64,000 nucleotides of DNA, taken from positions 1,426,001 to 1,490,000 of the forward strand of contig NZ_CP097128.1 of NCBI RefSeq assembly GCF_023330685.1, given 5' to 3'. A program made the translations under genes and the position numbers. This stretch comes from Conexibacter sp. DBS9H8 (GTDB lineage: Bacteria; Actinomycetota; Thermoleophilia; Solirubrobacterales; Solirubrobacteraceae). The stretch's first letter is position 1; every line of letters starts with the position of its first letter. Shown piece after piece: positions 47,767 to 63,842 of the stretch. Below the pieces are notes generated by a model. That model saw only the letters and a list, made by a program, of their open reading frames with translations. It searched no databases and was not told the origin of the DNA.

Positions 47767-48345
47767 TCAGATGAACAGGCTGATCGCCGAGCGTTGCATC
47801 CGCTCGAGCGCGGTCGCTGCCCCGGCGGCCTCATCGAGCCCGTCGATCATGTCCTCGTCCTTGAGCCCCATCAGGTCCATCGTCATCCGGCAGGGCCACA
47901 GTTTCACGTCGAGGTCCTTGGCCATCTCGAGCAGCTCCTCGGGCGGCGCGACGCCGTTCTGGGTGGCGAGCTTGCGCATCATCGCCGGGCCCGCTCCGGC
48001 CATGTTCAGCTTCGACAGGGCGGCGTGGTTGGCGCTGCCGCGGTTCATCAGCGACAGGCCCTTGGTCATCAGGTTCGTGCCGGTGAGTCGCCGCTCGGGC
48101 TTGACGAGGCCGAACAGGCCCCAGAAGGTGAAGAAGACGGCGACGTCCATTCCGCCCGCCGCCGCGGTGGTGGCGAGGATCGTCGTCGGCCAGATTCGGT
48201 CGAGGTCGCCACCCCAAGCGATCAGGGTGACCATGTTCGGGTCACGGACCTCCGATTCCCGGCGCAGGATCAGTTCGTTGACGAACGCCTCCAGCTCACT
48301 CGTGTCCATCTCCCCGACCTTGCCGGGTGCCGCTGTTGTCTCCAC
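47767..48345 (-). CDS. DsrE2-type sulfurtransferase-like protein
   Basis: A 192-residue DsrE/DsrF-fold protein. N-terminal charged helix, TLIAWGGDLDRIWPTTILATTAAAGGMDVAVFFTFWGLFGL (hydrophobic, possibly membrane-touching as in DsrE2 proteins), and LWPCRMTMDLMGLKDEDM, whose Cys (C152) fits the persulfide-carrying position of the family. The start is the GTG at 48345, behind AGGAGGAGGG. It lies 29 nt downstream of the arsR gene on the same strand and is divergent from tusA-dsrE3-shdr, which places it in sulfane-sulfur transfer. Confidence 0.85.
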   Translation of the reverse strand: METTAAPGKVGEMDTSELEAFVNELILRRESEVRDPNMVTLIAWGGDLDRIWPTTILATTAAAGGMDVAVFFTFWGLFGLVKPERRLTGTNLMTKGLSLMNRGSANHAALSKLNMAGAGPAMMRKLATQNGVAPPEELLEMAKDLDVKLWPCRMTMDLMGLKDEDMIDGLDEAAGAATALERMQRSAISLFI

Positions 48346-48374
48346 GGACCCTCCTCCTCTGATACGCGTTTGAC

Positions 48375-48737
48375 CTATTGGATGGGCAGTGTCGCCTCGA
48401 GCTGTTTGCCCCACTGGGCCCAGTGCTCGCGGACGGACTGACAGACGACGGTGCAGACCTCCTCCAGGGAGGGGTCGGAGATCCGGTAGAAGACTCGGTT
48501 GCCCTCGCGCCGGCGCGCGACGACCCGGTGGGCGCGCAGCAGCGCGAGTTGCTTGGACGCGGTCGCGTAGGAGAGCCCGAGGCTGCTGACGAGTTCACCG
48601 ACGGCGCGCTCACCGTGGGCGTGCAGGTCGTTGAGGATCTGCAGGCGCGTCGGGTCACTGAGCAGGCGGAAGCGCTCAGCGACGGTCTCGATCACCGGCA
48701 GCGGCAGGGTGTCATTGAGATCGTCCCCGAACATCAT
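48375..48737 (-). CDS. ArsR-family regulator of the sulfur island
   Basis: A 120-residue winged-helix repressor: FRLLSDPTRLQILNDL, VGELVSSLGLSYATASKQLALLRAHRVVARRREGNRVFYRI. Two Cys near the C-terminus (C95 and C99, CTVVC) could form a di- or trisulfide switch. The known sulfane-sulfur sensors (SqrR/BigR/SoxR/sHdrR group) use a differently spaced Cys pair, so the mechanism may differ. It forms an operon with dsrE2 and faces tusA across a region with an inverted repeat. ATG 48737 is chosen; GTG 48746 is possible. Confidence 0.85.
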   Translation of the reverse strand: MMFGDDLNDTLPLPVIETVAERFRLLSDPTRLQILNDLHAHGERAVGELVSSLGLSYATASKQLALLRAHRVVARRREGNRVFYRISDPSLEEVCTVVCQSVREHWAQWGKQLEATLPIQ

Positions 48738-48773
48738 CGCGCTCACACTAAACGATCGCTTGGGCATTCGGGC

Positions 48774-48798
48774 AATTTTCCTCTTTGAGAAAATTTTC
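48774..48798. promoter_or_regulatory. Inverted repeat in the divergent arsR/tusA control region
   Basis: AATTTTC (48774-48780) and GAAAATT (48789-48795) form an inverted repeat with an 8-nt spacer. The right arm is part of a perfect GAAAATTTTC palindrome (48789-48798). AT-rich in a GC-rich genome and centred between the two start codons (48737 and 48864), it is a likely operator for the adjacent ArsR protein, controlling both transcripts. Confidence 0.55.
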
Positions 48799-48820
48799 CC
48801 CACAGGTAAGGCCGTCGCGT

Positions 48821-48826
48821 TATAAC
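48821..48826 (+). promoter_or_regulatory. Candidate -10 element for the tusA-shdr operon
   Basis: TATAAC lies 38 nt before the tusA ATG and about 23 nt past the inverted repeat. No -35 hexamer is visible at standard spacing, so the promoter may need an activator or rely on the -10 alone. Confidence 0.4.
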
Positions 48827-48863
48827 TCCAAGCACCCCAGCCGTTGCAGTGAAGGAGAGAGAG

Positions 48864-49100
48864 ATGTCGGAGATTGCTCCGGGCCAGACGCTCGACGTCA
48901 CCGGTAAGGCCTGCCCGATTCCGGTCGTCAAGACCGCCAAGGCGATGAAGGAGATGTCGAGCGGAGACGTGCTCGAGGTGCTCGCAACCGACCCGGGGGT
49001 CGACCCGGACATGCACGCCTGGTCCAAGCAGACGGGCAACGAGCTGATCTCCATCGAGCAGAACGCCGGCGTCTTCCGCGTCCTGCTGCGCAAGTCATGA
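48864..49100 (+). CDS. tusA: TusA sulfur carrier protein
   Basis: A 78-residue TusA/SirA-fold carrier that holds sulfur as a persulfide on Cys17 in the signature GKACPIPVVKTAKAM (CPxP). Cytoplasmic. The ATG at 48864 is preceded by GAAGGAG at about 8 nt; a GTG five codons earlier sits before this site and is rejected. First gene of the plus-strand island. It should hand sulfur to or from the DsrE proteins and the sHdr complex. Confidence 0.95.
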   Translation: MSEIAPGQTLDVTGKACPIPVVKTAKAMKEMSSGDVLEVLATDPGVDPDMHAWSKQTGNELISIEQNAGVFRVLLRKS

Positions 49101-49158
49101 GCGCCGGGAACGCCGTCGCGGTCGCCCGCAGTGTGCGGGGCGGGCAGGGGATGGGCCG

Positions 49159-49539
49159 ATGAGTGATGACGGGGAGGCCTCGGTCCTGTACGTGATGACA
49201 CACGGGCTGGAGTCGCCGCGCCGGTGTGCCACCCCTTTCTTCCTCGCCGCCTCCGCGGCGGCGATGGACGCGGACACCTCGATCTACTTCACGATGAACG
49301 GGCCCCAGCTGCTCAAGAAGGGGGTTCCCGAGAGCATCGGCCCCAAGGGGGAGGAGGGTGAGCGCCTCAGCTTCTTCATCGAGCAGGCGCTCGACTGCGG
49401 GGTGCACCTGCTCGTCTGCCAGCCCTCTCTCGACCTCAATGACATGGTGTTCGAGGACCTCATCGACGGGGTGCGGATGATCGGCGGGGCGGCCTTCAAC
49501 GATATGGCGATGGAAGCGGACGCGGTGATCAGCTTCTGA
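49159..49539 (+). CDS. dsrE3: DsrE3-type sulfurtransferase
   Basis: 126 residues, DsrE fold: VLYVMTHGLESPRRCATPFFLAASAAAM, IYFTMNGPQLL, and CGVHLLVCQPSLDLNDM with two Cys six residues apart, the likely persulfide site. FEDLIDGVRMIGGAAF follows. It is between tusA and shdrC1 and its stop overlaps the shdrC1 start. TusA-DsrE3 pairs are known partners in sulfur-oxidising clusters. Confidence 0.9.
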   Translation: MSDDGEASVLYVMTHGLESPRRCATPFFLAASAAAMDADTSIYFTMNGPQLLKKGVPESIGPKGEEGERLSFFIEQALDCGVHLLVCQPSLDLNDMVFEDLIDGVRMIGGAAFNDMAMEADAVISF

Positions 49540-50276
49540 TGTCCGCCACCGCCCACCCCACCCCCGTCCACTCGGACTCGGCCGCGTACAAGCTCGGGAC
49601 GACATATCCGGACGTCCCCTATGCGGAGAAGGAGCGACTCTTCGGCGAGATGAAAGCCGACGAGCGGTTCGCCGACTACCTCTACGGCTGTTATGAGTGC
49701 GGGATCTGCGTCGCCGCCTGCCCGTCCGCGCGCTACTACGACTTCTCACCACGGCGGATCGCCCAGGCGGCCGCCCGGGAGGACGTCGAACTGATCTACC
49801 AGCAGATGCAGGAGGACATCTGGGACTGCTCCCAGTGCTTCTCCTGTCTGCGCTGTCCGCGCGGGAACAACCCCGGCGGAATCATCACGGTGATGCGTGA
49901 GGTCGCCGTCAACAACGGCCTCGACAGCGCCCGCCAGGCGCTGCGTGGCTACACGCGGATCATCTACAAGATCATGTCGACGGGGACCCAGGTGTCCCCC
50001 GACATGCTCCAGGCCGACGCGTTCCCCGACTGGGGGCCGAGCGTCGCCAAGGTGTCGGAGAAACTCGACCTGTGGCGGCGGGCGCTGCCCCCCGACACCC
50101 ACCACACGACGACGACCGGCTGGGAGATCTCGACCAAGACGCTCGTCGAGCTCTACCTGATCTGGCACAAGACGGGGGCGTTGGCGATGATCGAGGAGCT
50201 CGACCCGAGCCTGCACAGCCTGCTGGAGGAGGTCATGGAAGACCTGCTGGATGAAGAGGGATACGAGCTCGACTGA
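49539..50276 (+). CDS. shdrC1: sHdr complex subunit C1 (two [4Fe-4S] clusters)
   Basis: A 245-residue HdrC-like electron-transfer subunit. The first cluster motif is CYECGICVAAC (C-x2-C-x2-C-x3-C). The second is CSQCFSCLRC (C-x2-C-x2-C-x2-C, one residue shorter than usual), followed by PRGNNPGGI. The ATG overlaps the dsrE3 stop (TGATG). It is followed by shdrB1 and shdrA, the fixed sHdr order. Cytoplasmic complex, proposed to oxidise protein-bound sulfane sulfur to sulfite. Confidence 0.92.
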   Translation: MSATAHPTPVHSDSAAYKLGTTYPDVPYAEKERLFGEMKADERFADYLYGCYECGICVAACPSARYYDFSPRRIAQAAAREDVELIYQQMQEDIWDCSQCFSCLRCPRGNNPGGIITVMREVAVNNGLDSARQALRGYTRIIYKIMSTGTQVSPDMLQADAFPDWGPSVAKVSEKLDLWRRALPPDTHHTTTTGWEISTKTLVELYLIWHKTGALAMIEELDPSLHSLLEEVMEDLLDEEGYELD

Positions 50277-50293
50277 TGAGAGGGATGTGAACC

Positions 50294-51496
50294 ATGGCGA
50301 TTCCCGTGGAGAAGGTGGCGGGCCCCCGCCGCCAGAACAAGGCAGAGTTTCAGTGGAGTGCCGACCAGGCGCCCGCAGACTTCCATGAGCGGCTGTTCGA
50401 GCTCGAGGAGCGCGGCGAGCTTGTCGTCCAGCGGGTCGACACCGAGTACATGGAGGTGCCGGTCAAGTACGGTCGCACCAAGAAGGTGCCGATCGGCCAC
50501 ACCTGGCACCACAAGAGCTGTGGCCAGTGCGGCCACATCCCCGGTTACTCGACGTCGATCTTCTGGGTCAACCGCAAGCTCGGGATCGAGTACGAGGATC
50601 CGCGGGACCAGACCTCGTGCACGGCGTGGAACTACTACGCCTCGGCGACCTCCAACGCGGCCGCCCAGGCGGCCGTGGCGATGCGCAACTTCGCTGCCGC
50701 CTATGAGACCGGGCGCTTCCCGATCATCCACTGCGGGACCTCCTTCGGACACTACAAGGAGGTGCGCCATGAGATCCTCGCCCACGACCACCTGCGTGAG
50801 GAGGTCCGCCGGGTGATGGACGCTCTCGGCAAGCCGCTCGTGCTGCCGGAGGAGATGGTCCACTACTCCGAGTGGTTCTACGCGATGCGCCACGAGATCG
50901 CCCGTCACCAGGTCCGTGACTTCTCCAAGATCGCCGTCACCGTCCACCCCGCCTGCCACTACTACAAGCTGGTGGAGGGCGACGCCATCTACGACCCGGA
51001 GGTCTACGGCGGACAGCGGACGGCGATCGTCTCCGGCGTTGCCGAGGCCCTCGGCGCGGAGGTCCGCGACTACTCGACCTGGTTTGACTGCTGTGGCTTC
51101 GGCTTCCGCCACATCCTCGTCCAGCGCGACTTCACCCGCTCCTTCGCCACGCAGCGCAAGATCAAGCGGATGAAGGAGGAGGCCGACCCCGACGTCACCC
51201 TCACCCACGACACCGGCTGTGTGACGACCCTCGACAAGAGCCAGTTCGCCGCGCGCGCCCAGGATCCGAGCTTTGCGACGATCCCGGTGCTGTCCGAGGC
51301 CCAGTTCGCCGCCCTGGCGATGGGCGCCCATCCCTATCTCGTCTGCCAGTTGCACTGGCACGCCGCCGACTACAAGCCGCTGTTGGAGAAGATGGGAATC
51401 GACCACGAGAAGTGCTGGGCCGAGTTTGAGGAGGCAACCGCCCGCCTCGAACGCGGTGAGCAGCAGTACCTGACCTGGGAGGACACCGATGTCTGA
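50294..51496 (+). CDS. shdrB1: sHdr complex catalytic subunit B1 (CCG domains)
   Basis: A 400-residue HdrB-like subunit. A first Cys-rich region (HKSCGQCGHIPGYSTSIFW, then TSCTAWN) and a second with VHPACHYYK, WFDCCGFGF and HDTGCVTTLDK are the CCG-type sites for non-cubane clusters. It is larger than methanogen HdrB (about 300 residues). The gene overlaps shdrA by 8 nt, showing tight coupling. ATG at 50294. Confidence 0.92.
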   Translation: MAIPVEKVAGPRRQNKAEFQWSADQAPADFHERLFELEERGELVVQRVDTEYMEVPVKYGRTKKVPIGHTWHHKSCGQCGHIPGYSTSIFWVNRKLGIEYEDPRDQTSCTAWNYYASATSNAAAQAAVAMRNFAAAYETGRFPIIHCGTSFGHYKEVRHEILAHDHLREEVRRVMDALGKPLVLPEEMVHYSEWFYAMRHEIARHQVRDFSKIAVTVHPACHYYKLVEGDAIYDPEVYGGQRTAIVSGVAEALGAEVRDYSTWFDCCGFGFRHILVQRDFTRSFATQRKIKRMKEEADPDVTLTHDTGCVTTLDKSQFAARAQDPSFATIPVLSEAQFAALAMGAHPYLVCQLHWHAADYKPLLEKMGIDHEKCWAEFEEATARLERGEQQYLTWEDTDV

Positions 51497-52538
51497 GTCC
51501 GTCGTCGTCATCGGAGGCGGCCCCGCCGGGATCGAGGCCGCCCGCGGGGTTGCCGACCTCGGCTTGCCCTCGATCCTCATCGAGCAGCGTGAGCGCCTGG
51601 GCGGCACACCGATCTTCGCCAACTACGCGGCGTTGACACCCTACTTCGAAGATGCCGAGCAGGCGATGGATGCGATGATCGCCGAGCTCAACGCTCGCCC
51701 GCTCGCCGAGGTGCGGACCAACACGACGGTGACCGGGCTCTCGGGGGAGGCCGGCGCCTTCACCGTCGAACTCTCCACCGGTGAGAGCCTCGAGGCGGGC
51801 GCGGTGATCGTCGCGACCGGCTTCGATCACTTCGACCCGGGCCGCGAGCGCCAGATCTACAACTACTACCAGTATCCCGACGTCCTCACCCTGCAGGACC
51901 TCGAGGCCCAGCTCAAGGCCCACGAGGTCCTCGTCCCCTCGACGGGCAAGCCGCCAGAGCGAATCTGCTGGGTCCAGTGCGTCGGTTCGCGGGACCGCAA
52001 CATCGGCAACGAGTGGTGCTCGAAGGTGTGCTGTGGCATCGCCTCCAAGCAGGCGATCGAGGTACGGGAGATGGTTCCCGGCTGCCGGGCCTACATCTTC
52101 TACATCGACATGCGCATGTACGGCTACTGGGAGACCCAGCTCTACTGGCCCGCCCAGGAGAAGCACCACGTCCAGTACATCAAGGGGATCATCACCGAGG
52201 TGCTCGAGCGGGGCGACCGGCTCGTCGTCCGCGGTGAGGACACGACGATGGGCCGTCCGCTCGAGGTGCCGATGGACATGGTGATCCTGTCGGTCGGGAT
52301 GGAGCCGTCGGCGGGCACCAAGTCGATGGCCGGGGTCCTTGGGATCGAGCCGAACCGGTACGGGTTCATCGAGGCGGCCAAGCCGCCGCTCGACACGGTC
52401 AGCACCTCCCGCACGGGGGTGTTCGCCTGCGGGGCGGCGCTTGGCCCGGCCGACCTCGAGGACACGATCTCCTCGGCGGGAGCTGCGGCGGGCAAGGCCG
52501 TCGCACTCGTTCGGCGCGGCACCCTCCAGACCGTCTGA
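51489..52538 (+). CDS. shdrA: sHdr complex flavoprotein subunit A
   Basis: A 349-residue single FAD domain, much shorter than methanogen HdrA. SVVVIGGGPAGIEAARGVADLG and VIVATGFDHFDP bind FAD. CWVQCVGSRDRNIGNEWC at 160-177, then C181 and C182, resembles the HdrA Fe-S motif. GVFACGAALGPADLEDTISSAGAAAGKA closes the flavin fold. It lacks the extra ferredoxin domains and the MvhD site used for electron bifurcation. Partner of C1 and B1. Confidence 0.93.
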   Translation: MSESVVVIGGGPAGIEAARGVADLGLPSILIEQRERLGGTPIFANYAALTPYFEDAEQAMDAMIAELNARPLAEVRTNTTVTGLSGEAGAFTVELSTGESLEAGAVIVATGFDHFDPGRERQIYNYYQYPDVLTLQDLEAQLKAHEVLVPSTGKPPERICWVQCVGSRDRNIGNEWCSKVCCGIASKQAIEVREMVPGCRAYIFYIDMRMYGYWETQLYWPAQEKHHVQYIKGIITEVLERGDRLVVRGEDTTMGRPLEVPMDMVILSVGMEPSAGTKSMAGVLGIEPNRYGFIEAAKPPLDTVSTSRTGVFACGAALGPADLEDTISSAGAAAGKAVALVRRGTLQTV

Positions 52539-52545
52539 GCCGATC

Positions 52546-53313
52546 ATGGCCGGCGGCGCAGGACCCACCGTGCCCGGCAGCCCCCCCGAGGTCGACATCC
52601 CGACCGCGAAGGAGCTGATCGAGCAGATCCACGAACACATCAGTCCCGAGGTGATCGGCGAGCTCACCGGGGAGCTTGCCGGCAAGGCCGAACGGATGCA
52701 CGCCCTCCTCGGCGGCCCCGACCTCGGCGCCGGCCGGGTGCGGGCCGCGGTCGAGCTCACCTTCGTCGGCCGCCGCCGCGCGAGCGCGATCCTCGGCACC
52801 CGTGATGACGATGTGCTTGCCCGCTGGGTCTCTGACCTCCTCACCGGCCCCGATCCGATCGACGTCCGCGTGGAGCGATTCTGTGCCCAGGCCGGCGAGC
52901 TGTCCCCGGCCGCGGCCGTCGAGCTCGCCGGTGAGCTCCTCCACTTCACTGCCCCCCGGGATCACTGGCTGTTCTCCCGCTGGATGTGGAGCCAGGAGAG
53001 CCGGACCGGTGCGCTTGCGCTGCTGATCGGGGAGGAGTACGAACTCGACGCCGACGGTCTCGGGGAGGGGTACCTGCGCGTCGGCGCGGCGGTCGCCGCG
53101 CTGCACGACTCCCCGGAGGCGGGTGCCTTTCGGCTCCACGGCGGCGGGCGATTCGGCACGGACGTGCTGCTCGCCTGCACGTACGGGATCTACATGCGGA
53201 CCGTGCTCGGTCTGAAGATGACGCAGGAGTTCAACGCACTCGTGCCGGCTCTGCCCCAGCTCGTGCGCCGCCTGCTCGGTACCCACGTCAAGCCCGCACA
53301 GGAGGCTCGCTGA
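52546..53313 (+). CDS. sHdr-linked conserved hypothetical protein (H)
   Basis: A 255-residue soluble protein that holds the fixed place between shdrA and the next Hdr gene; such a gene is present in known sHdr clusters but has no assigned function. Visible are an amphipathic N-terminus (TAKELIEQIHEHISPEVIGELTGELAGKAERMHALLGG), FTAPRDHWLFSRWMWSQESRTGALALLIGEE and LACTYGIYMRTVLGLKMTQEFN, with only two Cys and no cluster motif. ATG 52546, 8 nt after shdrA. Confidence 0.85.
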   Translation: MAGGAGPTVPGSPPEVDIPTAKELIEQIHEHISPEVIGELTGELAGKAERMHALLGGPDLGAGRVRAAVELTFVGRRRASAILGTRDDDVLARWVSDLLTGPDPIDVRVERFCAQAGELSPAAAVELAGELLHFTAPRDHWLFSRWMWSQESRTGALALLIGEEYELDADGLGEGYLRVGAAVAALHDSPEAGAFRLHGGGRFGTDVLLACTYGIYMRTVLGLKMTQEFNALVPALPQLVRRLLGTHVKPAQEAR

Positions 53314-53315
53314 AC

Positions 53316-54617
53316 ATGCCGGTTGGAGGATACAAACTGCTGCCGATCGTCCATGAGGTCGCCTCGGCGACCGTCGATGGGGTCGAGCTCACCGCGGACT
53401 GGAACCGCCAGTTCGAGACACGGGTGATCGAGGACTACGACAGCAGCCCGCTGTTTGACCTCGCCGCCCTGTCGGAGGCCGAGTCGATCGAGTGGTGTTA
53501 TGGCTGTGGCCGCTGCGTGCCGGTCTGCCCCGTCGACCTCGTCGGCGAGTACGGCCCACGCAAGGTCCACCGTAAGCTGCAGATGGGCATCGACCTGCTC
53601 GAGGACCCGGACCTGTGGCTGTGTACGACCTGTGGCAACTGTCTGCGCGTGTGCCCCAAACAGGTTGACATGATCAAGATCATGCCGGCCGCCCGGGAGG
53701 CGGCGATGACCGCGGGCAAGGAGGTGCCCGCGGAGCTGCAGGGGGTGCTCGAGGCGACCTTCAAATACGGCAACGCGCTCGGCCAATCCCCGCGGCGCCG
53801 GTCGGCCTGGACCAAGGGGGCCGGTGTCCCGGTGCGCGACCTGACCAAGGAGCCCGGCCCCGTCGACTACCTGTTCTACGTGGAGGACTACTGGTCCTAC
53901 CACCCGCGCGGGCATCAGGCCGCCCAGGCGTTCGCCCGGATCCTCCACCAACTCGGGATCGATTACGGGATCCTCGGGCATGAGGAGCGCACCCTCGGGG
54001 ACTCCCAGCGCCTCGCCGGGGAGAAGGGGCTGTTCGAGATGCTGATGGAGCAGGTCGTCGAGACCCTTGACCGTCATGAGTTCGGGGCGATCGTCACCCC
54101 CGACCCGCACGGCTTCAACGCGCTCGCGACCGTCTACCCGAAGTACGGCCACACCTTCGAGGTCCTCCACTACACCCAGCTGCTCGCCCCCCGGGTCTCC
54201 GAGCTGACCTTCACCACCCCGCTCGACGTCAAGGTCACCTTCCATGACCCCTGCTACCTCGGCCGCCATAACGGCGAGTACGACGCGCCCCGCCGGCTGC
54301 TCGAGGCGATCCCCGGGCTCGAGCTCATCGAGATGATGCGCTGTAGGGAGAACGGGTACTGCTGTGGCGGTGGTGGCGGCGGGATGTGGCTCGACGGCCA
54401 CACCCAGAGCCACACGTCCGAGCGGCTGTCGGTGCGCCGGGTCAAGGAGGCCGCCGAGACCGGCGCGGACGTCCTCGCGGTCTGCTGCCCCTATGAGGTT
54501 TCCCGGTTCGAGGACGGGGCCAAGGCCGCCGGGGTCGATGACCGGCTCCGGGTCCTCGACATCGCCGAGCTGCTCGACATGGCCCTCGGGGGCCCGGACA
54601 GGGTCGCGGGAGCCTAG
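53316..54617 (+). CDS. shdrB3: Fused HdrC-HdrB subunit (sHdrB3 type)
   Basis: A 433-residue protein with an N-terminal HdrC-like part: CYGCGRCVPVC from residue 61 and CTTCGNCLRVC from residue 103, both C-x2-C-x2-C-x3-C. A C-terminal CCG part follows: HDPCYLGRHN (C313), CRENGYCCGGGGGG (C343, CC349-350) and VCCPYEVSRF (about 390). It replaces the separate C2 and B2 subunits of other sHdr clusters. As I recall, this C1-B1-A-H-B3 order with etf genes defines a second sHdr layout. ATG at 53316, 2 nt after gene H. The fusion also resembles the membrane protein at 61255 without its membrane part. Confidence 0.88.
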   Translation: MPVGGYKLLPIVHEVASATVDGVELTADWNRQFETRVIEDYDSSPLFDLAALSEAESIEWCYGCGRCVPVCPVDLVGEYGPRKVHRKLQMGIDLLEDPDLWLCTTCGNCLRVCPKQVDMIKIMPAAREAAMTAGKEVPAELQGVLEATFKYGNALGQSPRRRSAWTKGAGVPVRDLTKEPGPVDYLFYVEDYWSYHPRGHQAAQAFARILHQLGIDYGILGHEERTLGDSQRLAGEKGLFEMLMEQVVETLDRHEFGAIVTPDPHGFNALATVYPKYGHTFEVLHYTQLLAPRVSELTFTTPLDVKVTFHDPCYLGRHNGEYDAPRRLLEAIPGLELIEMMRCRENGYCCGGGGGGMWLDGHTQSHTSERLSVRRVKEAAETGADVLAVCCPYEVSRFEDGAKAAGVDDRLRVLDIAELLDMALGGPDRVAGA

Positions 54618-55664: not shown

Positions 55665-56107
55665 TGCTGACAGTTGCCGGATACACCCTCGACCCCGCCC
55701 TGCGGTACGAGCCCGCGACCAACGTCTGGGTCGCCGACCTCGGCGACGGTCGGGTGCGGGTCGGGCTGGACCCGCTCGGCGCCGAGACGAGCGGGGACAT
55801 CGTCGCGGTGTCCTTCGCCGCGTCCGGTGCCGCGCTCGCCGCCGGGGAGGCGATGGCGATCATCGAGGCGGCCAAGTTCGTCGGACCTCTCGCCGCCCCC
55901 GTCCCCGGCCGTCTCGCCGCCGTCAACCCGGCGGTGATCGACGCCCCCGGCCAGATCAACGCCGATCCCTACGGCGCCTGGCTGGCCGAGCTGGACGGGG
56001 TGCCGGCCGACCGCCTCGCCGCCCTGGTCGGCGGCGAGGCGGCCATCACCGCCTGGTTCGCCGATGCCGTCGCCCGGTTCCGCGCCGAGGGGGCGATCGC
56101 CCAATGA
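55664..56107 (+). CDS. lbpA: Lipoate-binding protein LbpA (GcvH-like)
   Basis: A 147-residue lipoyl-domain protein resembling glycine-cleavage H protein. Lysine K71 in AIIEAAKFVGPLAAPVPG is the lipoylation site, and the C-terminal AINADPYGAWLAEL-like region (GQINADPYGAWLAEL) matches the H-protein end. No glycine-cleavage P or T gene is nearby; the sHdr context instead marks it as the dedicated sulfur-oxidation carrier LbpA. ATG overlaps the ligase stop; the next gene overlaps its stop. Confidence 0.93.
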   Translation: MLTVAGYTLDPALRYEPATNVWVADLGDGRVRVGLDPLGAETSGDIVAVSFAASGAALAAGEAMAIIEAAKFVGPLAAPVPGRLAAVNPAVIDAPGQINADPYGAWLAELDGVPADRLAALVGGEAAITAWFADAVARFRAEGAIAQ

Positions 56108-57057
56108 GCACGCTCACCCCCCTCACGGACGGGATGAGCCTTCGGCTCGAGCGCTTCGGCAGCCAGATCGAGTTCTACGCGCCCGGGCTCAAGCGCTGGC
56201 AGTCGAGTGAGTGGACCCCGGAGAACCCCAACCGGTTCCGTCCCGTGTCGGTCACCGGCACCGCCTGCGGTCTCCAGTGCGAGCACTGCAAGACCAAGGT
56301 GCTGGAGGGGATGATCACCCTCGGGAGTGAACGGGACCTGTTCGCCCGCGCGGTCCAGCTCCAGGCCGGCGGCACCGACGGCATCCTCGTCTCCGGAGGC
56401 TCCCAGAAGCACGGTGGCGTGCCGCTCGGCCCCCACCTCGAGGCGATGGCGCGCATCCGCGAGGAGCTCGGAATGCGGGTCGTCGTCCACTCCGGGGTGA
56501 TCTCCCCCGAGCTCGCCGACGGGCTCGCCGACGCCGGGGTGGACGGGGTGATGCTCGACATCATCGGCGCCGAGGAGACGATCCGGGAGGTCTACCATCT
56601 CGACCTCACCCCCGAGGACTTCGACACCGCCCTCGGGGTCCTCGCCGCGCGTGGGCTGCGGATCATCCCCCACATCGTCCTCGGGCTTCACTACGGCCGC
56701 TTCCTCGGGGAGTGGCGGGCCCTGGAGATGATCGCCGGCCACCCCGTCTCCACGCTGATCCTCGTCGTTCTCACCCCGCTGGTGGGGACCCCGATGGGCC
56801 ACCTGCCGCCGCCGCCGGTCGGCGACGTCACCGACTTCTTCGCGCTCGCCCGGACACGGATGCCCGATACGCGCATCAACCTCGGCTGCGGGCGGCCGAT
56901 GGGCGCGACCAAGGTCGCCCTCGACCGGGCGGCGATCGACCACGGACTCAACGGGATCGCCTATCCGGCGGACGGGATGATCGCCTACGCCCGCGAGCGC
57001 GGGCTCGAGCCGGCCTTCCACGAGTACTGCTGCTCGCTCACCTGGGCGGACCTGTGA
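56104..57057 (+). CDS. LipS-type radical SAM lipoyl synthase subunit (first)
   Basis: A 317-residue radical SAM enzyme: TACGLQCEHCKTK holds the C-x3-C-x2-C [4Fe-4S]/SAM site (about residue 54). GILVSGGSQKHGGVPLG, MRVVVHSGVISPELADGLADAG and INLGCGRPMGATK follow, as in biotin-synthase-like folds. Not LipA, which has two distinct Cys motifs. By position beside lbpA it is one of the two LipS proteins proposed to insert sulfur into octanoyl-LbpA. ATG overlaps the lbpA stop (ATGA). Confidence 0.87.
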   Translation: MSTLTPLTDGMSLRLERFGSQIEFYAPGLKRWQSSEWTPENPNRFRPVSVTGTACGLQCEHCKTKVLEGMITLGSERDLFARAVQLQAGGTDGILVSGGSQKHGGVPLGPHLEAMARIREELGMRVVVHSGVISPELADGLADAGVDGVMLDIIGAEETIREVYHLDLTPEDFDTALGVLAARGLRIIPHIVLGLHYGRFLGEWRALEMIAGHPVSTLILVVLTPLVGTPMGHLPPPPVGDVTDFFALARTRMPDTRINLGCGRPMGATKVALDRAAIDHGLNGIAYPADGMIAYARERGLEPAFHEYCCSLTWADL

Positions 57058-58337
57058 GCCCGATGACGCCCAGCGGCCCCGACACCGGACGTGAGGACAC
57101 GGGCATCGGCCCACGCTGGCGGGTGCTCTGTGACGACGGCGCCGGGGCGGTGGACGGGCTCGCCCTCGATGAGGCGCTGCTGGCCCCCTACGGCCGGGAG
57201 GCCAACGGGGTCGACGGGGTCGACGCGGCCCACCCGACCGACGGCTCCCATCAGCCCGTCACGGCGACGGTGCGTCTCTACACCTACGCCCCCCACTGCG
57301 CGCTGGTCGGCCACTACCAGTCCCTGGAGAGTGAGCTCGACCTCGCCGCGTGTGCGGCCGCCGGCGTCGGGGTCGGACGCCGGCCGACGGGCGGCGGGGC
57401 GATCATCATGGGCCCCGACCAGCTCGGGGTGGCGATCGCCACCCGCGCCCCCGCCGGAGCCAGCCCCCGGACGCTGCTGGCCCGCTACGGCGGCGGCCTC
57501 GCCGACGGCCTCGCCGGCCTCGGGATCGACGCCCGCTTCGCCGGCAAGAACGACCTTGTCGTCGGCGGGCGCAAGATCGCCGGTCTCGGTCTCTACCTCG
57601 ACCCCCACGGGGCGCTCCTCTTTCACGCGAGCCTGCTCTGTGACCTCGACGTCGCCCTGATGCTGTCGGTCCTGTCGATCCCCGGCGCCAAGCTCGCCGG
57701 CCACGGCGTCTCCCGCGTGCAGGAGCGGATCACCACCGTCAGTGAGCAGCTCGGCCGCCACGTCAGCGCCGCCGACGTGCGCGGACGGGTCGCGGACGCC
57801 CTGCTCGCCGCCGCGGGCGCCGAGGGGCTCGCTTCGGTCCCGACCGCCGCCGAGCAGCACCGAGCCGCGACGCTCACCGAGCAGCGTTACGGGGCGCCCG
57901 CCTGGCTGTCGGGCCGGCCCCAACCGCCCGGGGCCCGGGCGAGCGCGATGCTCGCCACCCCCGGCGGCCTGCTCCGCGTCTACGTCGGCGTCCAGCGCGA
58001 CGCCCTCTCCGCGGTCCTGTTCGCCGGGGACCTGTCCGTGATGGCACCCGCGCTGCTCGGGCTCGAGACCCGCCTGCGCTGGTGCCGGGCCGACCCGGAC
58101 CGGATCGCCGAGATCGTCAACGCCGACGGTGCCGCCGCTGAGCTCGGCGTCGCCCCACAGGCACTGGCGGAGACGATCTCGGCGGCGGCGGCCCGGGCGC
58201 TCGCGCGGGCCGGCGGGGCGAGCCCGATGCGTCCGGCAGGGTCCTGTTACTTCCCCGAGCCCGCGGCCACGTCGGGCTCCCCAGCCGAGAGAGACCGGCG
58301 CGTACGTGCGCCGCTGTCAGAGAGGAGTGCGGCGTGA
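57054..58337 (+). CDS. Second lipoate ligase/octanoyltransferase-like protein
   Basis: A 427-residue BPL/LPL-fold protein distinct from that at 54618: LYTYAPHCALVGHYQSLESELDLAACAAAGVGVGRRPTGGGAIIMGPDQLGVAI and FAGKNDLVVGGRKIAGLGLY, with the conserved Lys. A longer C-terminal region (LSVLSIPGAKLAGHGVSRVQERITTV, then a VGVQRDALSAVLFAGDL part) is attached. It could be an octanoyltransferase (LipM-like) that primes LbpA for LipS, or a second ligase. GTG start overlaps the upstream stop (GTGA). Confidence 0.82.
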   Translation: MSPMTPSGPDTGREDTGIGPRWRVLCDDGAGAVDGLALDEALLAPYGREANGVDGVDAAHPTDGSHQPVTATVRLYTYAPHCALVGHYQSLESELDLAACAAAGVGVGRRPTGGGAIIMGPDQLGVAIATRAPAGASPRTLLARYGGGLADGLAGLGIDARFAGKNDLVVGGRKIAGLGLYLDPHGALLFHASLLCDLDVALMLSVLSIPGAKLAGHGVSRVQERITTVSEQLGRHVSAADVRGRVADALLAAAGAEGLASVPTAAEQHRAATLTEQRYGAPAWLSGRPQPPGARASAMLATPGGLLRVYVGVQRDALSAVLFAGDLSVMAPALLGLETRLRWCRADPDRIAEIVNADGAAAELGVAPQALAETISAAAARALARAGGASPMRPAGSCYFPEPAATSGSPAERDRRVRAPLSERSAA

Positions 58338-59515
58338 GCGCGACCGCCACCACCGTTGAGCTGCCGGTCACCGGCGACCGCCAGGAAAGCCCGGAGTGGG
58401 TACGAATCTCCTACGCGAGCGCGCTCGCGCTCGGGTTCAAATCCGGCCGGTTCAGTCGTCCGTTCCCGTTCGGCGGGATCAACCTGCTGCTCTCCTATGA
58501 CCGCGGTTGCTCCTCGGACTGCGGCTACTGCGGCCTCGCCCGCAACCGGCCCGGCGAGTATGAGGAGAAGTCCTTCATCCGGGTGGAGTGGCCGCTGGTG
58601 GCCACCGACGAGCTGATCGCGCGGCTCGTCCGCCACCAGGCGTCGCTGACCCGGCTGTGCATCTCCATGGTCACTCACGGACGCGCGTTCGCCGACACGC
58701 TGGAGATCACCCGTCGGATCACCGCGCAGGTCGACGCTCCGCTGTCCCTGCTCGTCGCGCCCCCGACCCTCAATCGTGACCGGCTCGCCGCCTTCCGCGC
58801 CGCGGGCGCGGACATGATCGGGATCGGGATGGACGCCGTCACCGAGGACCTGTTCGCGTCGCTGCGGACCAACGTTCCCCAGGGCGGCCTGCGCTGGGAT
58901 CAGTACTGGTCGATCGTCGGTCACGCCCGCGAGATCTTCGGGGCCTGGAAGGTCAACTGCCACACCCTTGTCGGGCTCGGCGAGTGCGACGCGGACCTGC
59001 TGGGGATCTTCGACCGCCTGCTCGACCAGGAGATCTTCTCCTACCTGTTCTGCTTCAACCCCGAGCCGGACTCGCGGATGGGGCATCTGCCCAAGACACC
59101 GCTGCAGCGCTGGCGCCGGATCCAGCTCGCGAAGTTCCTGTTGGAGGAGCGTGGCCTCGAGCTGTCGGCCTTCGGCTTCGACGACGACGGGACGCTCAGT
59201 GCGATCGCCGCCCCCCGTGCGCTCGTGGAGGAGGTGATCGCCGACGGGCATGCGTTCATGACCAACGGCTGCCCCTCCAGCGGCGGTGAGCCCGGCTGCA
59301 CCCGGCCGATGGGCAGCTGGCGCCCGACCGAGGCGCCGCGTGACTTCCCCTGGAAACCGACGGCGGCGGAAACCGACGGGATCCGCGCGGACCTCGCTCT
59401 CGACGAGCTGATCCGGCCCGCCCCCGCGCGGACCCGTCCGCGTGAGCGGTGGGCCCCGCCGGCGGCCGGACGGGTGAGGGCCCATGTTGATTCCGATCAA
59501 GGAGAGAGAGCATGA
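58334..59515 (+). CDS. LipS-type radical SAM lipoyl synthase subunit (second)
   Basis: A 393-residue radical SAM protein with GCSSDCGYCGLARN (C-x3-C-x2-C) near residue 57. SLTRLCISMVTHGRAFADTLEIT, LLVAPPTLNRDRLAAFRAAGADMIGIGMDAVTEDLF and HTLVGLGECDADL are biotin-synthase-like features. A C-terminal MTNGCPSS...CTRPMGSW region adds two Cys that could hold an auxiliary cluster serving as sulfur donor. GTG overlaps the previous stop. It completes a LipS1/LipS2-like pair; which is which I cannot tell. Confidence 0.87.
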   Translation: MSATATTVELPVTGDRQESPEWVRISYASALALGFKSGRFSRPFPFGGINLLLSYDRGCSSDCGYCGLARNRPGEYEEKSFIRVEWPLVATDELIARLVRHQASLTRLCISMVTHGRAFADTLEITRRITAQVDAPLSLLVAPPTLNRDRLAAFRAAGADMIGIGMDAVTEDLFASLRTNVPQGGLRWDQYWSIVGHAREIFGAWKVNCHTLVGLGECDADLLGIFDRLLDQEIFSYLFCFNPEPDSRMGHLPKTPLQRWRRIQLAKFLLEERGLELSAFGFDDDGTLSAIAAPRALVEEVIADGHAFMTNGCPSSGGEPGCTRPMGSWRPTEAPRDFPWKPTAAETDGIRADLALDELIRPAPARTRPRERWAPPAAGRVRAHVDSDQGERA

Positions 59516-60279
59516 AGATCGTCGTGCCGCTCAAGCAGACGGTCGACCTTGTCGAGGAGCTCGAGCTCAACGACGAGGCGACCGACGTCGAACGGGAGTA
59601 CCTCACGTTCAAGCTCAACGAATGGGACGAGCAGGCGCTTGAGGAGGCGCTGCTGCTCAAGGACGCCGGCGTCGCGAGCGTCACCGTCGTCGGGCTCGAG
59701 GAGGAGGACATCGACCAGAGCCTGTACTCGGCGCTCGCCAAGGGGGCCGACGAGGCGGTCAAGCTGACCGGCGACTTCTCCGCCGGCGTCTCCAGTCACC
59801 GGCGCGCGGCGATCCTCGCCGATTATCTCCAGGGGGCCGGCTATGACGCGGTGCTGATCGGCGTCCAGACCCCCGAGGACCTCGACGGCCAGGCCGGCGG
59901 GATCCTCGCCGGCCTGCTCAACGTCCCCCACGTCTCGGTCGCCGTCGGGGTCGAACCCCTCGACGCGGGCCTGAAGGTCACCCAGGAGTTCGGAGCCGGG
60001 GTCGCCCACGAGCTCGCCGTCACCGGGCCGGCGGTGATCGGCGTCCAGGCGGCCCGCCAGGCTCCGCGCTATGTCCCGATCTCCCGCATCCGTGCGGCGA
60101 TGGGGGAGGGCGGGCTGTCGGAGGTCCCCGCCCCCGAGGTGGACGTTCCCGCCGGGCTCACCGTCCGGCGGATGTATGCCCCCGAGTCGAGCTCGCACGC
60201 GGAGATGCTCTCCGGCGGCGTCGACGCGGTCGCCGCCCGGATCGTCGAAATCATCCGTGAGAGAGGAGTTCTGAAATGA
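59512..60279 (+). CDS. etfB: Electron transfer flavoprotein beta subunit
   Basis: A 255-residue EtfB: MKIVVPLKQTVDLVEELELN, the recognition loop region LNEWDEQALEEALLL, VLIGVQTPEDLDGQAGGILAGLL and the ISRIRAAM segment. With EtfA it forms a heterodimeric FAD carrier. Whether it is a bifurcating type cannot be decided by eye. ATG 59512 with AAGGAG upstream, overlapping the LipS-type stop by 4 nt. Its place inside the sHdr operon suggests it accepts sHdr or lipoate electrons. Confidence 0.93.
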   Translation: MKIVVPLKQTVDLVEELELNDEATDVEREYLTFKLNEWDEQALEEALLLKDAGVASVTVVGLEEEDIDQSLYSALAKGADEAVKLTGDFSAGVSSHRRAAILADYLQGAGYDAVLIGVQTPEDLDGQAGGILAGLLNVPHVSVAVGVEPLDAGLKVTQEFGAGVAHELAVTGPAVIGVQAARQAPRYVPISRIRAAMGEGGLSEVPAPEVDVPAGLTVRRMYAPESSSHAEMLSGGVDAVAARIVEIIRERGVLK

Positions 60280-61223
60280 GCCAGGAGATCTTCGTCCTCG
60301 TCGAGCACCACAACGGTGAGGTGACCGATGCGACCCATGAGTGCCTCGGACAGGCCGAGGCGCTCGGCGGTCCGACCGTCGCCGTGCTGCTGCACAGCGG
60401 CGAGCGTGCGCTCGCCGACGGGCTCTACGCCGACCGGGTGCTCAGCGTTGACGACGCCGCCTTCTCCCACTTCCTGCCCGAGGCCTACGCCGCCGCGCTC
60501 GCCGCGCTCGTTCGCGACCGCGACCCGCGGCTCGTGCTGATCGCCAACTCGACGGTCGGGATCGACGTCGGCGGGCCGCTGTCGGCCCGCACCGGACGAC
60601 CGCTGGTGGCCTACTGCAAGGGCCTGGCCGTCGAGGGTGACACGATCCTCGCGACCAGCCAGGTCTACGGCGGCAAGCTCAACGCCGAGGTCGAGATCGC
60701 CGGGCCGGCGATCGTGACGATGGTCGCCGGCGCGACGGCGCCCGCGGAGGGCAGCCCCGGCAGCGTCGAGGACGTCGCCGCCCCCGAACTCGGCGGGCTC
60801 CAGACCCGGTTCCTGACCCGGATCGAGCCGGACGGCAGTGACGTCGACATCACCGGCGAGGAGATCCTCGTCTCCGTCGGTCGGGGTATCGGCGGGGAGG
60901 ACAACATCGGACTCGCCCAGGAGCTCGCCGACGCGATCGGCGGGACCGTCTCCGGGTCACGGCCGGTGACTGACGCCGGCTGGCTGGCCAAGACCCGGCA
61001 GGTCGGCAAGTCCGGACGCAAGGTCAAGCCGAAGCTGTATCTCGCCTGCGGGATCTCCGGCGCCCCCGAGCATCTCGAGGGGATGTCCGACGCGGAGCTG
61101 ATCATCGCGATCAACACGGATGAGAAGGCGCCGATCTTCGACGTCGCCCACTACGGCAGCACCGAGGACCTCTTCGACCTGCTGCCGGCGCTGACCGAGG
61201 CCCTTGAGGGCGTCACCGCGTAA
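60276..61223 (+). CDS. etfA: Electron transfer flavoprotein alpha subunit
   Basis: A 315-residue EtfA. The C-terminal FAD-binding region is complete: VGRGIGGEDNIGLAQELADAIGGTVSGSRPVTDAGWL, RQVGKSGRKVKPKLYLACGISGAPEHLEGM and INTDEKAPIFDVAHYG. ATG overlaps the etfB stop. Next gene 31 nt downstream is the presumed membrane partner. Confidence 0.95.
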   Translation: MSQEIFVLVEHHNGEVTDATHECLGQAEALGGPTVAVLLHSGERALADGLYADRVLSVDDAAFSHFLPEAYAAALAALVRDRDPRLVLIANSTVGIDVGGPLSARTGRPLVAYCKGLAVEGDTILATSQVYGGKLNAEVEIAGPAIVTMVAGATAPAEGSPGSVEDVAAPELGGLQTRFLTRIEPDGSDVDITGEEILVSVGRGIGGEDNIGLAQELADAIGGTVSGSRPVTDAGWLAKTRQVGKSGRKVKPKLYLACGISGAPEHLEGMSDAELIIAINTDEKAPIFDVAHYGSTEDLFDLLPALTEALEGVTA

Positions 61224-61254
61224 GCGGCGGATCTGAGGAGAGGGAGGAGAGAGG

Positions 61255-63384
61255 ATGGCCGAGCCGATATTCCCGATCGTCTTCGGGATCGCGATGCTCA
61301 CCTTCGCGGTGACCCTGTTCCGTCGCGCGCGGCTGCTGCTGGCAGCCGCGCCCGCGGCGCGCTTTGACCACATCCCCCAGCGGCTGCGGCGGATGACGAT
61401 CGACGCGCTCGCCCAGCGCAAGTTCCTGCGCGGCGAGCAGCCCGCCGGGATCATGCACGCGATCATCTTCTGGGCGTTCATGGTGTTGTTGTTGCAGGTG
61501 ATCACCCTGTTCGGCGGGGCGTTCAACTACAACTTCCACATCCCCGGGTTCGGGGCCAACCAGATCCTCGGGCCGCCGTTTTTCCTCGCCCGCGACATCC
61601 TCGAGTTCGGGGTCATCGTCGCGGTCTCCTACATGCTCTACCGGCGCCTCATCGCCCACACCCCGCGCCTGTTCGGCCTCGGCCGGGCCGAGGACCGCTA
61701 CCGCCAGGCCCCGCACTGGGAGGGGATCCTCATCCTCCTGTTCATCTTGATGATCATGGTCGGCGGGCTGCTCCACGACGCCGGCCTGCTTGTCGCCAAC
61801 CACACACACGGCAACGCGCGCACGTTCGCGCCGCTGACCGCCCTCGTCGCCGACCTGCTCTCGGGGCTGTCGGCCCACAGCGCCCTGATCGTCTCCAAGG
61901 TCGGCTGGTGGATGCACAACGTCACCGTGGTGACGTTCCTCAACCTGCTGCCGCTCTCCAAGCACTTCCACATCATCACCGCGGTCCCGAACGTGTTCTT
62001 CTCCAAGCTCACGCCCGAGACCGCCCCGCGGACCTTCGCGGTCACCCACGTCCCCGCCTCCGTCGCCCGGCTCGACCCTCCGCCGAAGGAGCGTCCGGGT
62101 GTGGCGACCCTCGCCGACGTCACCTGGAAGCAGGTGCTCGACTCGTTCTCCTGCACCGAATGTGGACGCTGCAGCTCGGTCTGTCCGGCGACCGCGAGCG
62201 GCGCACCGCTCGCACCCCGCCAGGTGATCCTCGACATCCGCGACCGCCTCTACCGCCACCCCGACGAGCAGCACGGGGCCGTCGCGGGCGCCGAGCCGCT
62301 GATCGGCGCCGACGTCCTATGGTCCTGCACGACCTGCATGGCCTGCGTTGAGGCCTGCCCGGTCGGGATCGAGCACGTGCCGACGATCGTCGACATGCGC
62401 CGCACCCTGGTGGACCGCGGCGAGATGGAACCGCTGTTGCAGAAGACGCTGGAGAACTTCTCCAAGCAGGGCAACTCCTACGGCAAGTCGGCGAAGATGC
62501 GCGCCCGCTGGACCAAGGAGCTCGACTTCAGCATCCCGGACGCGCGCAAGGAACCCGTCCAGTACCTGTGGTTCGTCGGGGACTTCGCCTCCTTTGACGA
62601 GCGCGTCCAGGCGGCCTCGCGCCGGGTCGCGCGGATCCTCCACGGCGCCGGCGTCTCCTTCGGGATGCTCTATGACGGGGAGCGCAACGCCGGCAACGAC
62701 GTCCGCCGGGTCGGGGAGGAGGGCCTGTTCGAGCTGCTGGTCGAGCACAACCTCGGCGCCCTCGCCGACGCCGAGTATGAGGCGATCTTCACCACCGACC
62801 CGCACTCGCTGAACACGCTGCGCAACGAGTACCCCGCCTACGGACTCGACAAGCCCGTCTACCACTACACCGAACTGCTCGCCGAGCTCGTCCAGGCCGG
62901 ACAGATCCGGCTCACCACCCCGCTGACGGGGACGCGGGTCACCTACCACGACCCCTGCTATCTCGCCCGCTACAACCGGATCACCGACGCCCCGCGGGCG
63001 CTGATCGCCGCCAGCGGCGCGCAGCTGATCGAGATGCCCCGGCACGGCACGAACACATTCTGCTGCGGGGCCGGCGGCGGCCGGGTGTGGATGGACGACT
63101 CAGGTCTCACCGAACGGCCGAGTGAGCAGCGGATCAGGGAGGCCCAGGCGCTCGGGGAACTCGACTACTTCATCGTCAGCTGCCCCAAGGACCTCGCGAT
63201 GTACTCGGATGCGGCCAAGACGGTCGGGGCGAGCTTTGCGGTGGCCGAGCTGACCGCCCTGATCGAACCGGCCCTCGCCGCCGCCGAGCCGCTGCTCGCC
63301 GGGGTCGGGGCGGGCGCGAGCGCGATGGCCGACGGGGCCGAGCCGGCCGGAGCCGGGTCGCCGGCCGGTGAGGACGGGGAGTGA
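61255..63384 (+). CDS. Membrane Fe-S/CCG oxidoreductase (EtfD/HdrF-like, ETF:menaquinone oxidoreductase candidate)
   Basis: 709 residues. The N-terminal ~235 form a NarI-like heme-b membrane domain of five to six helices with candidate ligands MHAIIFW and HNVTVVTFLNLLPLSKHFHI. Then come two [4Fe-4S] motifs: CTECGRCSSVC from 300 and CTTCMACVEAC from 358. A CCG domain follows: HDPCYLARYN (C568), FCCGAGGGRVW (C603-604) and SCPKD (C643). The layout matches EtfD/EMO proteins that pass ETF electrons to menaquinone. The soluble half parallels sHdrB3 in this operon. ATG 61255 follows a purine-rich GAGAGGGAGGAGAGAGG leader. Confidence 0.9.
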   Translation: MAEPIFPIVFGIAMLTFAVTLFRRARLLLAAAPAARFDHIPQRLRRMTIDALAQRKFLRGEQPAGIMHAIIFWAFMVLLLQVITLFGGAFNYNFHIPGFGANQILGPPFFLARDILEFGVIVAVSYMLYRRLIAHTPRLFGLGRAEDRYRQAPHWEGILILLFILMIMVGGLLHDAGLLVANHTHGNARTFAPLTALVADLLSGLSAHSALIVSKVGWWMHNVTVVTFLNLLPLSKHFHIITAVPNVFFSKLTPETAPRTFAVTHVPASVARLDPPPKERPGVATLADVTWKQVLDSFSCTECGRCSSVCPATASGAPLAPRQVILDIRDRLYRHPDEQHGAVAGAEPLIGADVLWSCTTCMACVEACPVGIEHVPTIVDMRRTLVDRGEMEPLLQKTLENFSKQGNSYGKSAKMRARWTKELDFSIPDARKEPVQYLWFVGDFASFDERVQAASRRVARILHGAGVSFGMLYDGERNAGNDVRRVGEEGLFELLVEHNLGALADAEYEAIFTTDPHSLNTLRNEYPAYGLDKPVYHYTELLAELVQAGQIRLTTPLTGTRVTYHDPCYLARYNRITDAPRALIAASGAQLIEMPRHGTNTFCCGAGGGRVWMDDSGLTERPSEQRIREAQALGELDYFIVSCPKDLAMYSDAAKTVGASFAVAELTALIEPALAAAEPLLAGVGAGASAMADGAEPAGAGSPAGEDGE

Positions 63385-63842
63385 GGATGGTGACCCCGTG
63401 TGTCTCACCCGCCCTCGCCCGTGCTCTCGCCGCCCGGCTGCGCGACGCCACCGCCGCCGGGGAACAGCTGGCCTCCTTCGCATTCTCCGAGGGCGCCCCC
63501 GCACCCGGGCCCGAACTGATCGCCGGGGAGGAGCGCGCCGTCGCCCATGACTTCCTCCTGCGCGTCCTCCACGGCGTGTCGGAGCCGCTCGCCTGGGAGC
63601 TGCTCGCCCAGGCGGTCGCCGGCGCGGAGCGAACCGGTCTCGACGCCCTCACCGCGGCGGTCGGGCTGCCGCGCCTGGCCGTCACCGAGCGGGTCAACGC
63701 GCTCATCCAGCTCGGTCTGCTCACCCGCGATCTCGAGCATGACGCGGTCGCGGTCACCCCGGCCGGGGAGGCGATCTTCGAGCTCGTCTGCGAGCTCGAC
63801 GCCGAGATCGCCGGCTGGCTGGAGAAACGCCGGAAGGGCTGA
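63381..63842 (+). CDS. Winged-helix-like hypothetical protein in the sHdr operon
   Basis: About 153 residues. The second half looks like a winged helix (LDALTAAVGLPRLAVTERVNALIQLGLLTRDLEHDAVAVTPAGEAIFELV). The first half is helical with no recognised domain. The GTG at 63381 overlaps the stop of the membrane oxidoreductase gene (GTGA); ATG 63387 is the alternative. It could be an operon-encoded regulator or a structural partner. I do not recognise the family. Confidence 0.65.
   Translation: MRMVTPCVSPALARALAARLRDATAAGEQLASFAFSEGAPAPGPELIAGEERAVAHDFLLRVLHGVSEPLAWELLAQAVAGAERTGLDALTAAVGLPRLAVTERVNALIQLGLLTRDLEHDAVAVTPAGEAIFELVCELDAEIAGWLEKRRKG

Follow-up and report, generated by a model that had tools for sequence, protein, structure and literature searches.

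A type II sHdr-LbpA operon, very probably for sulfur oxidation, and its variably placed lipoate cassette in a Solirubrobacterales bacterium

Among sHdr systems, type II is defined by a syntenic cluster that contains both shdrC1B1AHB3 and etfAB; etfAB belongs to the definition of this type and not to that of type I, and genomes with type II are reported to lack SoxT (PMC11582611; this and the other papers are cited from the parts of their text available to us). The same layout, with two or three lbpA genes linked with etfBA, was described in eLife in 2018 as Group III of the hdr-lbpA clusters of Actinobacteria and Firmicutes (PMC6067878), the main text of which contains neither of the words Thermoleophil- and Rubrobacter. 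Thiosulfate oxidation in Hyphomicrobium requires the lipoate-binding protein LbpA, and lipoate assembly by sLpl(AB)-LipS1/S2 involves a ligase and two radical SAM synthases encoded near lbpA, often linked with lipT (PMC10332631). Here we describe an operon of this kind in Conexibacter sp. DBS9H8, found in a stretch of 64,000 nucleotides (nt) (the window; positions 1,426,001-1,490,000) of its single-contig 3.64-Mb genome, which is 93.6% complete. Since its layout matches both Group III and type II sHdr, the arrangement as such is already known, including in Actinobacteria. What is new here is that a block of five genes, lplX-lbpA_a-lipS1-lplY-lipS2, occupies different positions in different genomes.

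The core of the operon lies on the plus strand and comprises shdrC1 (49539..50276), encoding a two-cluster ferredoxin subunit (Pfam Fer4_8 4.3e-09); shdrB1 (50294..51496), encoding a CCG-domain subunit (CCG 3.4e-12) for which orthologues were found; shdrA (51489..52538), encoding the FAD/Fe-S subunit; shdrH (52546..53313), encoding a conserved core protein that had no family match in Pfam and gave a 71-row alignment and a predicted model with a pLDDT of 91.8; and shdrB3 (53316..54617), in which a C2-like ferredoxin and a B2-like CCG part (Fer4_8 9.1e-11, CCG 3.8e-19) are joined in one protein, unlike the separate C2 and B2 genes of the type I system of Hyphomicrobium denitrificans. The genes etfB (59512..60279; Pfam ETF 6.9e-22) and etfA (60276..61223; ETF 1.3e-32, ETF_alpha 3.3e-31) lie in the same cluster. 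The cluster thus fits the published definition of type II sHdr, and both the fused B3 and this second layout had been recognised correctly in a preliminary description of the window. With three lbpA genes, two of them beyond the window end, it also agrees with Group III; compared with the type II core, which is identical, it adds the five-gene lipoate cassette between B3 and etfB.

Sixteen genes of the operon lie on the plus strand within the window (48864-63842), in the order tusA, dsrE3, shdrC1, B1, A, H, B3, lplX, lbpA_a, lipS1, lplY, lipS2, etfB, etfA, emo and a gene for a 153-amino-acid protein. The first of these, tusA (48864..49100; Pfam TusA 8.9e-24), encodes a sulfur carrier and is followed by a dsrE3-type sulfurtransferase gene (49159..49539; DrsE_2 3e-14, DsrE 8.1e-13), whose E3 subtype label is our assumption. 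The genes listed in the preliminary description do exist, as strong Pfam matches to TusA, DrsE_2, CCG, Fer4_8, LplA-B_cat, GCV_H, Radical_SAM (twice) and ETF indicate. Its account of the extent of the island needs to be revised, since the island is not complete within the window but runs on for about 2.9 kb beyond the window end, with a zinc-finger gene, lbpA_b (L036:140-580), lbpA_c (L036:582-1037), a Rieske gene (L036:1034-1738) and a gene for a flavoprotein resembling flavocytochrome c sulfide dehydrogenase (FCSD; L036:1735-2919), and it holds three lbpA genes rather than one, two of them just outside the window (G000:C1:1490179-1490959). The whole operon, from tusA through the FCSD-like gene, numbers 21 genes, and the next gene is a glycosyltransferase. 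With start codons picked by us, overlaps of 1-8 nt are found at 11 of its 20 junctions, and the largest gap is 58 nt. This agrees with the earlier view of one expression unit from tusA onwards; dsrE2, which had been included in that unit, lies on the minus strand together with arsR, both divergent from tusA, so that the operon starts at 48864 and not at 47767.

We consider it very probable that this type II sHdr-LbpA operon serves to oxidise carrier-bound sulfane sulfur to sulfite in the cytoplasm, with electrons passing through EtfBA and emo to menaquinone. On the scheme developed for Hyphomicrobium (PMC10332631, PMC11582611, PMC12423496; available parts), the DsrE- and TusA-type carriers would pass sulfane sulfur to LbpA, and the complex of C1, B1, A, H and B3 would oxidise the LbpA-bound sulfur to sulfite. 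LplX, LplY, LipS1 and LipS2 would build and attach the lipoate, and electrons would leave through EtfBA and reach menaquinone by way of emo, the membrane Fe-S protein. The emo gene (61255..63384) encodes 709 amino acids with a hydrophobic N-terminal part, judged by eye to be the membrane part, followed by Fer4 and CCG parts (CCG 7.5e-17), and its product is closest in the PDB to 9ojn, an 'Iron-sulfur-binding reductase' (3.6e-90), which we take to belong to the EtfD family; emo is probably an ETF:menaquinone oxidoreductase. If this reading is correct, it predicts dissimilatory sulfur oxidation in Solirubrobacterales.

Several observations weigh against this interpretation. The sHdrA tree discussed below includes a single type I sequence, a long branch that it does not place, and no type I sequences entered the comparisons of B1 and B3. 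The proteins named LipS1 and LipS2 score 213.6 and 172.5 bits against NCBIfam cut-offs of 230 and 270, and although these are their best-scoring NCBIfam models, the names can therefore mean no more than 'LipS1-like' and 'LipS2-like'. Finally, SoxZ was not found in any of the four Solirubrobacterales genomes searched (the same search was positive in one of 24 genomes, G237, and in none of 14 control genomes), making periplasmic thiosulfate handling by Sox unlikely.

This last result also favours a different purpose for the same chemistry, in which a heterotroph would rid itself of sulfane sulfur derived from sulfide, thiols or organosulfur compounds while gaining little or no energy. Such a role is compatible with the pathway proposed above, and we regard it as a substantial possibility, though one that falls somewhat short of even chances. 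The patchy occurrence of the operon within the genus (5 of 28 genomes) is in line with it, as is the flavoprotein encoded by the last operon gene, which resembles flavocytochrome c sulfide dehydrogenase (1fcd, 4.8e-9; Pfam FCSD_central only 0.023) and could yield sulfane sulfur from sulfide. Both cysteine motifs align, and we assume that these cysteines are the redox pair. The gene is kept, as is the Rieske gene, in the four Solirubrobacterales genomes that could be read through, at 46-63% identity to that of the window, suggesting sulfide as a possible source. That the unit also encodes EtfBA and a membrane Fe-S protein, however, points to delivery of electrons to the quinone pool. Two matches to the sulfite-oxidase superfamily (PF00174) occur in the genome, one with an in-frame TGA, and oxidation of sulfite by these proteins is only putative.

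It is far less probable that the Hdr genes are of another kind, methanogen-type or Flx-Hdr, and take no part in sulfur oxidation. All five PDB matches of B1 are methanogen-type HdrB, with no sHdrB1 structure among them, which would agree with such a view. For HdrA it is largely refuted: the best PDB match of sHdrA, over its full length, is the Hyphomicrobium sHdrA-type chain 6tjr at 317.9 bits, compared with at most 193.3 bits for methanogen-type HdrA, and in a tree of 30 sHdrA rows one branch (99/98) sets apart the 23 type II rows and another (98/98) the three methanogen HdrA. The preliminary description had named a phylogeny that places these Hdr genes with methanogen-type systems as a refuting outcome; by these sequence comparisons, the HdrA here is not methanogen-type. 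Further, lbpA, lip and tusA genes share the operon, and B1 is accompanied by sHdrA in all 80 fetched loci, mostly with further cluster genes within the reach of the contig. That the cluster is a relic or decaying is likewise very unlikely, since, rare as it is in the order (6 of 232 genomes), the window genes are all open, the junctions tight, the lipoyl lysines invariant and the gene order kept in four genomes.

The host was described beforehand as Thermoleophilia-like, and this is borne out by an sHdrB1 that is 93% identical to that of G134, a member of the same genus, which we take to be Conexibacter sp. S30A1 (NZ_CP097127), placed by NCBI in Thermoleophilia, Solirubrobacterales. The two bacteria share a genus. 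Because the operon is also present in S30A1, which has a complete chromosome and is thus probably an isolate, the prediction of sulfur oxidation can be tested there. A search with sHdrB1 at E 0.001 counts 116 of 232 genomes of the order, but all except six of these are distant CCG proteins with at most 34% identity; true orthologues (84-100% identity) occur in 6 of the 232, namely in 5 of 28 genomes of the genus (G000, G129, G130 in two pieces, G134 and G136) and in G169, from another genus of the same family. In a sample of the class, 5 of 399 genomes matched at E 1e-60. Many of the genomes surveyed in the order and class are incomplete; the type II operon is rare in both Thermoleophilia and Solirubrobacterales. 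As far as the final flavoprotein gene, the genes follow the same order in the four Solirubrobacterales genomes readable throughout (window+L036, L037+L138, L039+L139, L040+L140), and the remaining two carriers, G129 and G130, are cut at contig ends.

Outside the order, a scan of genome contigs found 187 relatives of sHdrB1, of which the 80 that were kept come from Actinomycetota (Acidimicrobiia, Ferrithrix, Amycolatopsis, Gordonia and others), Chloroflexota, Rokubacteria, Marinimicrobia, KSB1, Bacillota and Acidobacteriota. In 86 loci (L037-L122, some of them duplicates of one genome) annotated by tblastn with the island proteins, C1 was matched in 85, A in 85, H in 80, B3 in 79, etfB in 63 and emo in 40, as far as the contigs extend. 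A tree of C1, B1, A and B3 combined was built from 76 rows, that is, the window and 75 loci having all four genes, with L038 and L041-L044 excluded as duplicates or fragments. In this quick LG+G4 tree, rooted at the midpoint and with some long branches, the five Solirubrobacterales rows form one clade (support 100) within a clade of 44 (100), beside its 39 other rows (96), all actinobacterial by name. Some other Actinomycetota rows (e.g. L079, L092, L108) fall elsewhere. The tree favours an old actinobacterial lineage for the operon over its recent acquisition from any sampled group.

The five-gene block located between B3 and etfB begins with lplX (54618..55664), of the lipoate-ligase family (LplA-B_cat 4.3e-27), whose Lys148 is invariant across 30 aligned rows, some of which are duplicates of one genome. 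It is followed by lbpA_a (55664..56107; GCV_H 1.3e-21), a gene for a LipS1-like radical SAM lipoyl synthase (56104..57057; NCBIfam LipS1 3.8e-63), lplY (57063..58337), of the lipoate-protein-ligase family (LplA-B_cat 6.3e-32; TIGR00545 2.3e-29, under the cut-off of that model), and a gene for a LipS2-like radical SAM lipoyl synthase (58334..59515; NCBIfam LipS2 1.3e-50). The preliminary claim that the lipoate carrier comes with its own assembly enzymes therefore stands as regards the two ligases and two radical SAM proteins, and is weakened for LipS1 and LipS2 by scores below their cut-offs. Compared with the sLpl(AB)-LipS1/S2 assembly system (available text of PMC10332631), the block likewise combines ligase and two radical SAM synthase genes, but has two ligase-family genes and an lbpA, and lipT is not one of its five genes. 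In the available parts of the literature on LbpA with LipS1 and LipS2, we did not find it stated that such a block behaves as a unit with its own LbpA.

Examination of the 76 rows of the tree revealed that lplX comes next after B3 in 32, etfB (or tusA and then etfB) is the next island gene in 36, an lbpA in 3 and the contig end in 5, and at least six changes between the two main states are required on the tree. All five cassette genes are visible in 26 of the 86 loci, the remaining contigs being cut. Amycolatopsis acididurans (L091) is one of the actinobacteria that carry the cassette. LipS1 was found in all 11 genomes searched that have the cassette after B3 (11 of the 32 such rows). Among 37 genomes without a visible cassette at that place (33 of the 36 with etfB next, all three with an lbpA next, and L114, where the contig ends), it was found in 11 (3 of 20 and 8 of 17, five of these eight matches reading through one stop codon) and not found in 26, most of the surveyed genomes being fragmentary metagenome-assembled genomes in which missing genes may mean missing sequence. 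The negative set includes Ferrithrix thermotolerans DSM 19514 (G235), which is not a metagenome-assembled genome. LipA scored above its cut-off in 23 of 24 genomes searched (G247 gave only a weak partial match), indicating that nearly all such hosts are able to make lipoate otherwise.

The surroundings of LipS1 could be read in 10 of the 11 genomes that have it elsewhere than after B3. Four of them keep the order of the five genes: G246 and G486 carry the block downstream of lbpA_c, and in G241 and G488 it lies apart from the sHdr genes within the fetched stretch. KSB1 G489 and Marinimicrobia G493 have the arrangement lbpA_a-lplY-lipS1-lipS2-lplX, and in Acidobacteriota G495 lplX-lbpA_a-lipS1 is followed by the contig end. 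An a-type LbpA gene lies no more than one gene from lipS1 in 7 of these 10 relocated blocks. The LbpA types themselves are distinguishable: after exclusion of rows shorter than 100 amino acids and of duplicate loci, the a (31 rows), b (33) and c (24) groups each fall on one side of a branch, with support of 89, 89 and 78, which is not strong. The lipoyl lysine is kept in all 88 rows (31/31, 33/33 and 24/24), within the motif EAxKFVG in 28 of 31 a rows and none of the 57 b and c rows, and within ESxKWVGP in 30 of 33 b rows, 22 of 24 c rows and no a row. A DNA pattern for EAxKFVG matched 14 of 15 LipS1-positive genomes (seven further positives were left out of this search) and 3 of 26 LipS1-negative genomes, and a reversed control matched 0 of 41. 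Around the sites in the three negative genomes no island protein was matched, and we regard these sites as chance occurrences. G486, the only positive genome that the pattern missed, holds lbpA_a by tblastn. Fisher's test on 14/15 against 3/26 gives 2.6e-7, a value that is descriptive only since the genomes are related. Two observations speak against a strict link of a-type LbpA with the block. The adjoining LbpA scores best as b-type, at 27-37% identity, in 3 of the 10 blocks (Rokubacteria G237 and G490, Marinimicrobia G491), and the LipS1-negative genome G482 has, downstream of lbpA_c in its locus L065, a third LbpA whose best score is with a-type (40% over 65 amino acids) and which the contig end cuts off before the lysine. 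These comparisons suggest that lbpA_a mostly travels with the lipoate-making genes.

It is conceivable, though rather unlikely, that LbpA_a serves as the protein on which lipoate is assembled and not as a working sulfur carrier, and that LbpA_b and LbpA_c are the true sulfur carriers. LplY would then load octanoate onto LbpA_a, where LipS2 and LipS1 would insert the sulfurs before LplX hands the lipoyl group on to LbpA_b and LbpA_c. This would amount to a lipoyl relay resembling LipM-LipA-LipL with GcvH, separately evolved inside a sulfur-oxidation operon; the words 'lipoyl relay' were not found in the available literature on LbpA with LipS1 and LipS2. The idea draws on the company of a-type LbpA with lipS1 in every cassette after B3 and in most of the relocated blocks, on the separate lysine motif of LbpA_a, and on the fact that genomes in which LipS1 was not found retain lbpA_b and, in most cases, lbpA_c. 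The b-type neighbours in three blocks and the a-type-like LbpA of L065 weigh against it, and LbpA_a may instead be a plain third sulfur carrier that is modified only by the five-gene cassette. Present in some genomes, and with no LipS1 found in others beside the same sHdr genes, the cassette offers a natural experiment on the roles of the LbpA proteins.

Upstream of the operon on the minus strand are dsrE2 (47767..48309, or to 48414 from a possible GTG start), encoding a DsrE2-type sulfurtransferase (Pfam DrsE_2 1e-41), and a gene for an ArsR-family regulator (48375..48737; HTH_5 3.6e-07). The sHdrR regulator of H. denitrificans carries a cysteine pair, Cys50 and Cys116 (PMC12423496, available part). 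The only cysteines of the ArsR here are Cys95 and Cys99, with no equivalents of that pair, and assignment to the sHdrR type by this feature fails. An inverted repeat between arsR and tusA, AATTTTC-N8-GAAAATT (48774..48795, unstranded), is a candidate operator; a like repeat occurs in one of four aligned relatives (L038, an 11-nt perfect repeat in the matching place), a comparison made without statistics. At the other end of the window, the gene for the 153-amino-acid protein (63381..63842, plus strand) has relatives in 10 of the 86 loci, and its product may contain a winged helix (HTH_IclR 0.038 only, under the cut-off). It is followed directly 5' of lbpA_b by the gene for a 98-amino-acid zinc-finger-like protein (63847..64143, plus strand, in numbering extended 143 nt beyond the window), which has relatives at E 0.01 in 23 of the 86 loci, from several phyla.

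Other Hdr-like gene sets came to light in the survey. Upstream of the type II cluster in two loci (L052:3521-5742 and L098:5611-7805) there is a second, different Hdr set, in which two matches are HdrA-like (28-34% identity) and one is B3-like (54-56%). On plasmid pACF1 of Acidithiobacillus ferrooxidans (L123:787-4490), an sHdrB1-like CCG gene (52.7% identity over 88%) has a GcvH-like gene and two hemerythrin genes in its vicinity; the annotation of the 14 kb shown includes no further sHdr subunit, and the match recurs on two more A. ferrooxidans plasmids. A Picosynechococcus plasmid (L124:3092-8832) carries, by its annotation, an Hdr-like cluster of two ferredoxin, two CCG-type and two FAD genes.

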